A DNA stretch of 9,395 nt from Bacteroidota bacterium (lineage in GTDB: Bacteria > Bacteroidota > Bacteroidia > JACCXN01). The notes beneath the pieces are model-generated. The model saw nothing but the letters and a program-made list of their open reading frames with translations, did no database searches and had not been told where the DNA came from. Both the position numbers and the translations under genes were made by a program. How positions within the stretch are numbered: position 1 is the stretch's first letter; each line of letters opens with the position of its first letter. The stretch lies in contig JACCXN010000061.1 in the NCBI GenBank assembly GCA_013696965.1, forward strand, positions 1-9,395, written 5' to 3'. This document shows, one piece after another, positions 2,394 through 9,395 of the stretch.

Positions 2394-2435
2394 TACCAAT
2401 GAGGAAATTACTCAATATAATTAACTTAATGAAAT

Positions 2436-2589
2436 AACCGTGCACTACTTGTTCCGATTTAACTGGAATAGTAATGAATATATCATGTCGTCCCGAATAA
2501 ATCGGGATGACAATTAAAAAACAAATGCTTTAGCCTTCATGAGTTCCATAGAGGAATAATTAAAAACGAATAAATCATGTACTTATGAA
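2436..2589 (+). repeat. Dispersed leader element, copy A (upstream of beta-barrel paralog 2)
   Basis: This intergenic stretch is homologous to the sequence before the response regulator start (9126-9252 on the - strand). Shared blocks in the same order are: an AACC(G/A)TGCAC box (2436-2445); a CCGA-ATAAA-TCGGGAT hairpin; a 25-nt block at 2510-2534 (ACAATTAAAAA...TGCTTTAGC) matching 9177-9202 except for one extra A; a 24-nt block at 2552-2575 matching 9140-9163 with one mismatch; and AAATCATGTACTTATGAAAA against AAATTATATACATATGAAAA at the end. The element thus ends on a start codon (2585-2587). Function is unknown; a 5' untranslated or promoter element copied with its start codon is the simplest reading. 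Confidence 0.7.
2486..2512. other. Palindromic hairpin within leader element A
   Basis: TGTCGTCCCGA and TCGGGATGACA form an 11-bp stem around the loop ATAAA, with one G-T (G-U in RNA) pair at 2490/2508. There is no T-run after it on either strand, so it is not a typical intrinsic terminator. The same TCCCGAT/ATCGGGA core returns at 9205-9220 and 9299-9314. Confidence 0.7.
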
Positions 2590-3456: not shown

Positions 3457-3493
3457 AGACTCGTAAGCAGTTTTCCCAATAAAATTAACTTTT

Positions 3494-3527
3494 ATGAAAA
3501 CAAATATTTTACACAGGCCTTTTATTG
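3494..3527 (+). pseudogene. Out-of-frame signal-peptide start of the T9SS-sorted protein
   Basis: ATG at 3494 begins MKTNILHR, a standard signal-peptide n-region, 37 bp after paralog 2. Its frame is one base off the long downstream frame and ends at a TGA shortly after. Removing one base in the CCTTTT stretch (3518-3523) gives MKTNILHR followed by PLLASIIPLRLIAQ or RLLLASIIPLRLIAQ, a normal signal peptide ending in AQ|Q. The original start was therefore most likely 3494. In the long frame an in-frame TGA at 3495-3497 blocks any start further upstream. Confidence 0.6.
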
Positions 3528-5129
3528 GCTTCTATTATTCCTTTGAGATTAATAGCTCAACAACAATCTGTCAACCTAGTTTCAAATCCTTCTTTTGAAG
3601 AAATAAAAACTTGTCCATGGCTTGCTCAGACCCCGGGTGATTTTGAGCAAATAGCTGCTGCCTGGAGTAATCCAACAGCTAATACTCCTGATATTCATCA
3701 TGAATGTGGTTCAAGCTCAGTAGGTGTTCCATATAATATGTTTAGCTTTCCTCAACCTGTAAATGTACGTTCGGGTGGTCTTGCTTATGCTGGGGTTCAT
3801 ACGCTGTATAATCATCAATTGGATGTTCATACTAATTCAAGAGAATATATTCAAACGGAAATATATTTAAAGAGCGGCATTAAGTACAATATTAGGTATT
3901 TTGTGAGGTTATCTGATAAATCAGGCTATGCAACAAAGATGGGCTTTTATATTTCCACTACAAGACCTACATCAAATAATACTCTTGTTCTTCCAACTTC
4001 TTCTTCTGGCTTTCTTCATCCAGGGGTAATACAACATCAAAAAGATTGGAATTTAGTAGAAGGATCTTATGATGCAGAATCATCAGGCATTCATTATTTA
4101 ACCATAGGTAATTTTGATTCAGATGATGGCAAGGCTGATCGTATAGATAATAACAAGGCTTATTATGCCTATTATTACATTGATGATGTAAGTGTTACAG
4201 CAGAAGTATGCTGCCTGCATATATTGAATATTTCAAATACAGATATTAGTTCATTGTCAGTGCCTTATGTTGCCTCGGCAAATCACACTGTAAATGTTGG
4301 CCTGGGAGTAACTGTGCAAAGTGGTGCGAATGCAATTTTTACAGCAGGTAGTTCTATTGAATTTTCTTCTGATTTTGATGGAACTGATTTTGAAGCATAT
4401 ATCAGCCCTTGTCCTGAAGAAACTCAGATAAAAAAAGCCGCTGGTTTAGGACCCACTATAATTACTCCATATAATACTGGAGGAGATAATAATCAATTAT
4501 GCCTGAATTATGTTTCTGGAGCAACTTCATATATTGTTGAAGTATATACTACAACGGGAGCTTTGGTGTATTCAAATACTCAATTTATTATAGGACTGCC
4601 AGTGTGTGTGTGGAATGGAAAATCTGCAGGAGGTAATCCAGTTGCTGAGGCAGTTTATGAGGTTGAGATAACACTAAAAGGTTGTGATGATAAATCACTA
4701 TTAGTAAAAGGTAGTGTAAAAGTCTCGAACAGTCAATTCATGATTGTAAATAATAGTGAATTTGAGGAACTTGTTCAGCTTAATTTTGCTGAGGAAACAT
4801 TTGATGATGTTATAGAAGCATTTAATAAAAAAGAATCAATGGTCAAGTCGAATATTGAGAATACTGAGAAAAATATAGAAAGTAGTCATTCCAACTATAA
4901 ATTATTTCCTAACCCTTCTTCTGGAATATTTGATATTCAACTTCCTTTGGGCTCAACTGAACCTACAATAATTCGGATTTTCAATGGAGAAGGAAAAATT
5001 ATTTTCCAAGAGAAAACATTTAATGATCTTTTAAAAGTAAATATATCTTGCTTTGCGAGGGGAACATATTATCTAAAAGCAATGAAAGGAGAAGATATAT
5101 TGATTATTGAGAAAGTAATTATCAATTAA
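3525..5129 (+). CDS. Large secreted protein with T9SS type A sorting domain (start probably frameshifted)
   Basis: The 534-codon frame has only a TTG (3525) as a possible start, giving half a signal peptide (ASIIPLRLIAQ). See the out-of-frame ATG at 3494. Residues about 17-225 begin NLVSNPSFEE and end YYYIDDVSVT, the pattern of a jelly-roll (carbohydrate-binding-like) domain common in Bacteroidota secreted proteins, with TPDIHHECG and SREYIQTEI inside. Residues about 255-296 (AIFTAGSSIEF...FEAYISPCPEE) and about 335-400 (YIVEVYTTTGALVY, VWNGKSAGGNPV) are beta-rich modules resembling regions of gliding-motility-associated proteins. Residues 457-534 (NYKLFPNPSSGIFDIQLP to the C-terminus) are a T9SS type A sorting domain, so the product should cross the outer membrane and be anchored or released. 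Substrate unknown. Without a working signal peptide it may not be exported: it is either a recent pseudogene, a slippage-controlled gene or a sequence error. Confidence 0.8.
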   Translation: MASIIPLRLIAQQQSVNLVSNPSFEEIKTCPWLAQTPGDFEQIAAAWSNPTANTPDIHHECGSSSVGVPYNMFSFPQPVNVRSGGLAYAGVHTLYNHQLDVHTNSREYIQTEIYLKSGIKYNIRYFVRLSDKSGYATKMGFYISTTRPTSNNTLVLPTSSSGFLHPGVIQHQKDWNLVEGSYDAESSGIHYLTIGNFDSDDGKADRIDNNKAYYAYYYIDDVSVTAEVCCLHILNISNTDISSLSVPYVASANHTVNVGLGVTVQSGANAIFTAGSSIEFSSDFDGTDFEAYISPCPEETQIKKAAGLGPTIITPYNTGGDNNQLCLNYVSGATSYIVEVYTTTGALVYSNTQFIIGLPVCVWNGKSAGGNPVAEAVYEVEITLKGCDDKSLLVKGSVKVSNSQFMIVNNSEFEELVQLNFAEETFDDVIEAFNKKESMVKSNIENTEKNIESSHSNYKLFPNPSSGIFDIQLPLGSTEPTIIRIFNGEGKIIFQEKTFNDLLKVNISCFARGTYYLKAMKGEDILIIEKVIIN

Positions 5130-7811: not shown

Positions 7812-7993
7812 AATATTAAAATAGGGGTATTTTCTTAAATTTCATATTTAAGTTTGTCAAGCTTGATTAAAATGTTCTTTTATAACTTATTCTAAAATCT
7901 TAAAATAACGTTGAACTTTAATCATTTGGAGACCGTTTGGTTATTCTAAATTATCAAATATTGATAATGGTTACACTATACCTATTTCAGAAC
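7812..7993. other. AT-rich spacer between terminator and repeat cluster
   Basis: No coding frame of useful length, RNA gene or clear promoter is seen. One small inverted repeat, TTATCAAATATTGATAA (7950-7966), is present; it could be an operator-like site but nothing supports a function. Confidence 0.5.
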
Positions 7994-8104
7994 ATGAAAT
8001 TACTTTTTAAGAAAAAAGGAATTACTTTCTTGCTAAGGAAAGAGACATTTATTTCAAGAGGCATTACTTTCTTTTTAAGAAAGGAGACATTTATAACTTT
8101 TTAA
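7994..8104 (+). CDS. Possible 36-residue repeat peptide (doubtful gene)
   Basis: ATG at 7994 reads MKLLFKKK, then two 14-residue repeats: GITFLLRKETFISR (8018-8059) and GITFFLRKETFITF (8060-8101), ending in TAA at 8102. The peptide would be strongly basic and hydrophobic, like some toxic or membrane-active small peptides. The repeat continues past the stop only in degenerate form, and no conserved family is recognised. The repeat may be DNA-level only, with the open frame a by-product of a 42-bp (3 x 14) unit. It sits between two strong terminators and has no clear promoter. Confidence 0.25.
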   Translation: MKLLFKKKGITFLLRKETFISRGITFFLRKETFITF

Positions 8105-8143
8105 GAAAAAGGCATTACTTTTTAACAAAAGAGGCCATTTGTT
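7997..8143. repeat. Cluster of imperfect 42-bp tandem repeats with small hairpins
   Basis: Two full 42-bp units, 8018-8059 and 8060-8101, match at 31 of 42 positions (30 of the first 35), sharing ATTACTTTCTT and GAGACATTTAT. Partial units flank them: 7997-8019 and 8093-8111 (both containing ACTTTTTAAGAAAAA) and 8112-8143 (GGCATTACTTT then GAGGCCATTTG). ATTACTTT recurs at 7999, 8021, 8063 and 8114. Units can fold into small stems such as CTTTCTT-TTT-AAGAAAG (8068-8084). The last partial unit runs into the left arm of the terminator at 8127, suggesting that the terminator stem grew from a repeat copy. Confidence 0.75.
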
Positions 8144-8620: not shown

Positions 8621-9130
8621 TTAAGGATTGTAAATGAAACTCAAGGTTAAGAAAACAAGAACTGTAATTAAAAAAACACTTGCAGTTAATCTTAACCATA
8701 ACCTTTGATCCTTTGCTTCGTCTTTAAGCTTTTTTGCATGTACAATATTATTTATTGCGTTTTGTGTACGTACAAATGCGCTTTCGCTTTTAGATACATA
8801 ATCGAAAGCCCCTTCTTTAACCGATGTTACTGCAATATCAATCTTGTCTTGTCCTGATAAAATAACCACCTTGGTTTCCGGGCTTAACTTTTTAATTTCC
8901 TGCATTGTTTGTATACCATTAATTGCTTTAGGATTTGTTCCATTAAGAAAATAATCCAGCACAACAACATCAGGTTTAATGTTCATGTTCTTCAGGCATT
9001 CCTCTCCAGAGGTAAATGTATGGATGTTACTGGAATAATGCCTGGAATGTTTTAAATTGTTCTCCAACATTTTTAAATAGATGAGATCATCATCCACAAA
9101 AAAGATATTTATTTTTTGTTTGTTTTTCAT
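8621..9130 (-). CDS. Receiver-domain response regulator with a C-terminal transmembrane helix
   Basis: A 169-residue protein. Residues about 6-128 form a CheY-like receiver: acidic pocket in FFVDDDL (Asp13-15), phosphoacceptor Asp59 in VVVLDYFL, Ser92 of the conserved Ser/Thr switch in VVILSGQ, and Lys114 in YVSKSES. All phosphorylation residues are present, so it should accept phosphate from a histidine kinase. There is no DNA-binding or enzymatic output domain. After a short charged linker (HAKKLKDEAKDQR, 131-143) comes one hydrophobic helix at about 146-166 (RLTASVFLITVLVFLTLSFI) and then YNP, which would tether the receiver to the inner membrane by its C-terminus. No partner kinase is in the window. 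The start codon at 9130 lies inside a repeated leader element (AAATTATATACATATGAA), and YtxH lies downstream. Output by protein-protein contact at the membrane is inference. Confidence 0.9.
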   Translation of the reverse strand: MKNKQKINIFFVDDDLIYLKMLENNLKHSRHYSSNIHTFTSGEECLKNMNIKPDVVVLDYFLNGTNPKAINGIQTMQEIKKLSPETKVVILSGQDKIDIAVTSVKEGAFDYVSKSESAFVRTQNAINNIVHAKKLKDEAKDQRLWLRLTASVFLITVLVFLTLSFIYNP

Positions 9131-9252
9131 ATGTATATAATTTATTCGTTGTTAATTATTCCTTTATTGAATGCATGCTAAAGCATTTGTTTTTTTAATT
9201 GTTATCCCGATTTATCGAGAGCAATTTATATCATTCCTGTTTGTGCATGGTT
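9126..9252 (-). repeat. Dispersed leader element, copy B1 (upstream of the response regulator)
   Basis: Read on the - strand it runs from AACCATGCAC (9252-9243) through the imperfect palindrome TCTCGAT-AA-ATCGGGA, the 9202-9177 block (ACAATTAAAAA...TGCTTTAGC) and the 9163-9140 block to AAATTATATACATATGAA, which includes the response regulator start. The same blocks stand in the same order at 2436-2589 on the + strand. Copy B1 lacks about 25-30 bp that copy A has between the first box and the palindrome. It is the likely 5' leader of the response regulator mRNA. Confidence 0.7.
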
Positions 9253-9265
9253 AATTTTTAGCTAT

Positions 9266-9376
9266 TTCATATGTATATAATTTAACTGTTAATTGACATC
9301 CCGATTTATCGGGAGCCATGTTATATTCATTAGCGTTTGTGAACGGTTCGTGCATGGCTACCCGATAGCTATCGGG
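9266..9376 (-). repeat. Leader element, copy B2 (shortened tandem copy)
   Basis: This 111-bp unit repeats the 18-mer TTCATATGTATATAATTT (9266-9283; also 9126-9143 and 9377-9394) and a 26-nt palindrome block (9291-9316) that matches 9197-9222 at 23 of 26 positions. It lacks the 9140-9190 part of copy B1. Its ATG on the - strand gives ATG AAA TAG, so no gene is attached; it is a start region without a gene. Confidence 0.7.
9299..9314. other. Palindrome in leader copy B2
   Basis: TCCCGAT-TT-ATCGGGA, a perfect 7-bp stem. The equivalent in copy B1 (9205-9220) has one mismatch, and copy A has TCCCGA-ATAAA-TCGGGA. There is no T-tract, so it is not an obvious terminator. It could be an operator or a structural element of the repeat. 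Confidence 0.65.
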
Positions 9377-9377
9377 T
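9360..9377. other. Perfect 18-bp palindrome
   Basis: ACCCGATAGCTATCGGGT is self-complementary without a loop. It sits at the junction of two tandem leader copies, directly beside the third TTCATATGTATATAATTT. Loop-less palindromes suit a dimeric DNA-binding protein or a repeat boundary. Confidence 0.65.
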
Positions 9378-9395
9378 TCATATGTATATAATTTC
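9377..9395 (-). repeat. Third copy of the leader start region, cut by the window edge
   Basis: TTCATATGTATATAATTT (9377-9394) is identical to 9126-9143 and 9266-9283, so the tandem array continues beyond the window. On the - strand its ATG reads seven codons (MNPIAIG) before TAG. Confidence 0.6.

Follow-up and report, generated by a model that had tools for sequence, protein, structure and literature searches.

Introduction

In IS608, an internal guide pairs with the cleavage site and with the target, a fixed target is kept at the left, and the ends are folded (PMC5934647). Subclasses of tnpA_REP with atypical or inserted repeats are present in Bacteroidetes (PMC6006769). The repeat described here was found in a Bacteroidota genome of approximately 3.9 Mb (3.86 Mb in 106 contigs), and is most probably a non-autonomous, site-specific mobile element (probability of about 80%). 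The stretch of DNA that was analysed (9,395 nucleotides, referred to as the window) is the entire contig C61, which ends within an array of this element. Hardly any site is worse for an insertion than a start codon, yet the element targets these codons and leaves the gene translatable. Automatic annotation overlooks it. Repeats that target start codons and rebuild the start were not found in the literature searched, which is no proof of novelty.

Results

Element copies in the window

An earlier note on this DNA had reported that the sequences upstream of beta-barrel paralog 2 and of the response regulator gene on the opposite strand share several blocks. Local alignment of positions 2401-2604 with the reverse complement of 9101-9395 gave a score of 169, as against 94.5 for the best of 200 dinucleotide-preserving shuffles, and the blocks were in the order described. 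The two leaders were likewise confirmed, with exact bounds slightly wider than first given (Table 1). The element's own ATG, which had been taken as the gene start in both cases, serves as such for the response regulator, but not for beta-barrel paralog 2, which starts at 2605. The ATG of copy 1 (2585) opens a 7-codon frame (MKTVFYL), the TGA of which (2606-2608) overlaps the ATG of paralog 2; judged from this overlap, translational coupling of the two frames is possible. Copy 2 belongs to a tandem array, since a third unit and the end of a fourth unit reach the contig end.

Table 1. Positions of the element copies and their parts in the window
Feature	Position	Strand	Basis
Left ATGAA of copy 1, upstream target copy	2429..2433	+	sequence, array parse
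Element copy 1, single long-form unit 5' of beta-barrel paralog 2	2429..2584 (with right ATGAA to 2589)	+	
Palindrome TGTCGTCCCGA...TCGGGATGACA, occupying the position of the short-form CCATATG	2486..2512	+	fold, short-form comparison
TTCATGAGT, internal antisense of the right end, candidate long-form guide	2536..2544	+	predicted pairing with 2581-2589
Right end of copy 1, ACTTATGAA	2581..2589	+	
Right ATGAA of copy 1	2585-2589	+	sequence, array parse
Element copy 2, long-form unit immediately 5' of the response regulator	9131..9270	-	
Right ATGAA of copy 2, serving the response regulator as start codon (ORF 8621-9130; ATG 9130-9128)	9126..9130	-	
Third unit, head to tail with copy 2; CCCGATAGCTATCGGG palindrome right behind its ATGAA	9271..9381	-	
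Fourth unit, right end alone, cut at the contig end	9382..9395	-	

A CCCGAT...ATCGGG palindrome lies directly after ATGAA at 9361-9376, as if it were itself mobile, and the same palindrome occurs in place of the element's CCATATG in different families (L181, 1300-1510; units of G000). The module bearing TTCATGAGT is also present in L181, of another family. Elsewhere, the window encodes type IX secretion sorting domains, as expected of Bacteroidota. In a 534-amino-acid sorting-domain protein, the ATGAAAACAAATATTTTACACAGG start (within 3485-3530) is seemingly one base out of frame with the remaining signal peptide, and this offset seems to be a frameshift or an assembly error. Imperfect repeats of approximately 42 bases (GGCATTACTTTTTAAGAAAAAGG, AGACATTTAT) occupy positions 7977-8136, in the interval between a prolyl oligopeptidase gene and a YtxH-like gene, with a terminator-like hairpin at the end.

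The family in the genome

All places were taken with approximately 3 kb of flank, and arrays were parsed by successive ATGAA, so that a unit extends from one ATGAA to the next. The family comprised approximately 150 units at approximately 88 places in this genome, with 78 matches by blastn and at least 153 by profile. The left-end word ATGAAATAGCCATGCA had 135 matches with up to 2 mismatches (reversed-pattern control, 0) and the right-end word AAATTATATACATATGA had 150 (control, 2); one left-end match, on C90 (L109), was set aside as, by eye, coding sequence of a broken gene. Short units were 86-99 nt and long units 135-156 nt, the latter carrying an additional module of approximately 48 nt ahead of ATTATATACATATGAA. 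Neighbouring units were often head to tail with the ATGAA common to both, and many contig ends in this assembly were array copies. Hairpins vary among the units of one array, and the arrays are therefore mosaic. The flanks were unique on both sides, on the left up to ATGAA and on the right after ATGAA. Insertion was in one orientation only, at TATGAA, and the rightmost ATGAA served in most cases as start codon for an unrelated gene.

Empty sites and target

The dprA genes of one genus were compared across 61 genomes and the best 30 loci were read. At two of these (L247 and L248), a unit stood precisely at the start codon, flanked by ...AATAATTAGC and the coding sequence, whereas a locus encoding a 92% identical DprA (L250) read ...AATAATTAGC-ATGAACGAGCAGG without the unit. 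In the blastn alignment of the filled with the empty site, query positions 1-155 matched 1351-1505 and 248-396 matched 1501-1649, and the five shared bases were ATGAA. The insert was accordingly 97 bp, with ATGAA repeated at the junction. The element of L247 and L248 together with approximately 150 bases upstream was 98-100% identical between the two species, while the surroundings were 86-95% identical; this raised identity may reflect either constraint or recent transfer.

The second empty site was provided by a Y1-transposase gene (L044) interrupted by a 90-bp unit, again with ATGAA repeated at the junction. After removal of the 90 bp from ATGAA to ATGAA, the gene aligned without gaps to two paralogues (82% over 443 columns and 88% over 227 columns). 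Insertion was thus shown at both empty sites.

A T at position -1 of ATGAA was found in 56 of 66 insertions (30/33, 14/18, and 12/15 left flanks in three genome sets). Native ATGAA starts had this T in 38% and 24% of cases, and the difference from the insertions was significant by Fisher's test (1e-7, 0.0012, and 0.0014). The target is TATGAA, more than ATGAA alone, and the flanks showed no conservation past this T. The right ATGAA is either a duplicated target or borne by the element, the same pattern resulting from either.

Start codons and downstream genes

Of the right ends, 47 of 70 in this genome and 25 of 35 in G048 had an ATG that opened a frame of 50 codons or more. Outside the element, 503 kb of this genome contained 158 ATGAA at starts, 567 at other non-coding positions, and 1856 inside genes; starts therefore account for 22% of the non-coding sites (158/725), as against 67-71% of the element ends. 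The remaining copies were at non-start ATGAA or ahead of broken frames. Approximately 100 downstream frames, named by eye from their sequences, were unrelated to each other and included NuoA, trigger factor, PurT, ribulose-phosphate epimerase, DprA, glycogen synthase, and many exported proteins, nearly all with an N-terminal MK or MN. Unrelated genes, including the housekeeping gene nuoA and the trigger factor gene, gain the same new leader. Few sites were shared between genomes, and these between close relatives only.

The earlier note had considered a small non-autonomous element with a preference for gene starts, and this idea is now strongly supported by the approximately 150 copies, the two precise empty sites, the TATGAA target, and the enrichment at starts. 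It had also held that copies at random positions, or the lack of further copies, would speak against such an element; further copies were abundant and not randomly placed, a minority being at non-start ATGAA and one within a gene. Its interpretation as a whole is borne out in part, namely in the mobile, non-autonomous, start-targeting reading. For common control of the unrelated genes, which it had also proposed, position alone speaks; the functionally unrelated downstream genes and the lack of shared sites between distant genomes argue for drift or mobility and not for a regulon.

Distribution in relatives

Approximately 395 genomes were searched at the class level and as many at the phylum level, and every match of the phylum-level search was inside the same class (Bacteroidia). 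Carriers included G048 (60 matches), G359 (contig C191, Vicingaceae bacterium KA17), G156, G081, G363, and G245, and the repeat was also present in families f54, f22, f15, and f40. The right ends in these carriers were CATATGAA or CACATGAA, and coding sequence almost always came next. With only 9 and 13 genomes above the threshold, the repeat family is widespread without being universal, or has diverged past what blastn can detect. The first search of relatives also gave matches in G001 and G025, which were rejected as short AT-rich chance matches, and a collection-wide DNA pattern scan, the pattern of which was too strict, returned two genomes only. In glgA, the element was at the same place in HGW-Bacteroidetes-12 (L226) and in the Vicingaceae genome (L181), once in the short and once in the long form, indicating that the long module of a copy can be acquired or lost in situ.

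Folded structure

Three stems were recognised, with P1 just inside the left end, P2 enclosed by P1, and P3 formed by the internal TTC(C)AT(ATG) with the right-end CATATGAA, in which the internal C(C)ATATG pairs with the right-end CATATG. P1 occurred as GCCATG/CATGGC, GTCATGC/GCATGAC, CCCTATGC/GCATAGGG, and ATGCCC/GGGCAT. On 25 sequences, 91.6% of the cells paired and 8 of 15 pairs changed on both sides, values of which neither was reached in 500 shuffles. Slid control structures gave 12-61% pairing and were lower on those measures. Compensatory changes support both P1 and P2.

P3 was nearly invariant. Compensatory pairs were CATGTG/CACATG (L193 and L236) and CATCTG/CAGATG (L243), and P3 taken alone was paired in 407 of 426 cases (shuffle mean 402.5; reached in 3 of 5000). 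With most copies showing no variation, and with sliding by +2 still keeping a fair score, the covariation of P3 is thin and its support modest. DNA folding reproduced the three stems, and the short-form P3 included the AUG in the predicted RNA and DNA folds. In the long copy of the window, TTCATGAGT was predicted to pair with ACTTATGAA, which suggests a different antisense to the right end in long forms. Units of 98 nt, which are abundant in this genome, carry the CCCGATAAATCGGG palindrome where TTC(C)ATATG would stand; they lack a TTCAT guide and have spread nonetheless. Near the right end, short forms lacked a compact hairpin. A hammerhead-like CTGATGA in the linker was rejected as it was unconserved between genomes.

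Discussion

Mechanism and alternative explanations

With ATGAA at both ends after insertion, a gene hit at its start codon still has a start codon and the element becomes its new 5' leader. Tentatively, at somewhat less than even odds, we propose that the internal antisense serves as a guide, and that an HUH-type (IS200/IS605-like) transposase acting in trans moves the folded strand. The antisense would base-pair both to the right end and to the target, the enzyme would act on the folded single strand, the left ATGAA would be the old target, and the right ATGAA would arrive with the element. Insertions that break genes would be removed by selection, while an insertion at a start codon would be nearly harmless, and this could explain part of the enrichment at starts. 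Single-strand HUH transposition is favoured, with a recombinase second, because the antisense, the left-kept target, and the folded ends resemble IS608. If the guide model is true, the element would be a natural inserter of very small size, guided by sequence and placing a leader precisely at open reading frames. It is conceivable, with about the same reserve, that a start-codon-homing family extends across Bacteroidia, with its own antisense TATGAA guide, sense insertion, a rebuilt start, leader exchange, and an unrecognised enzyme.

No linked transposase was found, the Y1_Tnp genes of seven genomes being without flanking element ends. A RAYT/IS200 partner was rejected since the Y1_Tnp genes inspected in these genomes are flanked by other repeats, as was an IS91/Helitron partner since six of the seven (G000, G048, and four other carriers) had no Y2_Tnp (PF04986). 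The genome carries 12 or more Y1 transposase genes or gene fragments, of several types (L044, L043, L048, and others), and several of them are flanked by repeats of their own (e.g. GGTTCCACACTAAGCCCTTCCCACAGGCT).

The fixed short core at both ends, the head-to-tail arrays, and the precise insertion would also suit a tyrosine or other site-specific recombinase, by which small element circles would enter TATGAA through a 5-6 bp crossover, as in integron cassettes and conjugative transposons, and the folded single strand could serve as its substrate. We regard this as unlikely, as the core at the array junction is without inverted arms, the unit is only approximately 90 bp, and its flanks are conserved at the T at -1 alone. 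Still less probable is a cis-regulatory RNA leader, in which P3 would hide the start codon, the element would control translation, and selection for regulation would have spread it. Such a leader would account for the AUG lying within the predicted short-form P3, for the share of right ends that are starts (approximately 70%, three times that among non-coding ATGAA), and for the dprA leader region being more conserved than its surroundings in two species. It is at odds with the unrelated genes and the little sharing of sites between distant genomes, with the tandem arrays and the copies at non-start ATGAA and inside a gene, and with the start of paralog 2 in the window, which differs from the element's ATG; an Rfam match is also lacking.

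Mobility at the RNA level, with leader RNA inserting beside the AUG in mRNA and being copied back by a reverse transcriptase, appears very improbable: the structured strand and an enrichment at starts exceeding that of the motif itself would agree with it, but a copy lies within a coding region, others are at non-coding ATGAA, and no intron or ribozyme family was matched. Plain recombinational duplication of gene starts without any mobile element is hardly credible. The array units are near-identical and so have surely undergone unequal exchange or gene conversion, but the left and right flanks are unique, the downstream genes are unrelated, and the two precise empty sites already refute duplication for single insertions.

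Comparison with known systems

No Rfam match was obtained for the window at the gathering threshold, nor for the element in five array loci at E<=2. Like IS200/IS605 members, the element inserts 3' of a fixed short target that is kept at the left, although a duplicated target would look alike, and it has subterminal folds and a candidate guide. It differs from them in that no transposase was found, in having one candidate guide instead of two, in short forms without a compact hairpin near the right end, and in its target, TATGAA at start codons. With the REP and REPIN sequences of tnpA_REP (RAYT) it shares small size, lack of coding capacity, high copy number, palindromes, and presumed movement in trans, but it is longer, inserted in a single orientation, and targeted to start codons. 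No element repeats flanked the RAYT-like genes inspected, the sole association being the insertion inside the Y1 gene (L044).

MITEs are likewise short, non-autonomous, and present in many copies with a short sequence repeated at both ends. The flanking repeat of the element, however, is fixed and not variable, the units form head-to-tail arrays, and terminal inverted repeats, a feature of DDE MITEs, are absent, the left ATAGCCATGCAC and right AAATTATCTACAT not being inverted copies. Integron cassette arrays resemble the element in having tandem units joined at a common site and a folded single strand, whereas the units of the element are dispersed over many loci, carry no gene, and are joined at ATGAA and not at an attC core. 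The element falls within the broad class of small non-autonomous repeats that includes REP, MITE, and IS605 derivatives, but it lacks defining features of each among those that were tested.
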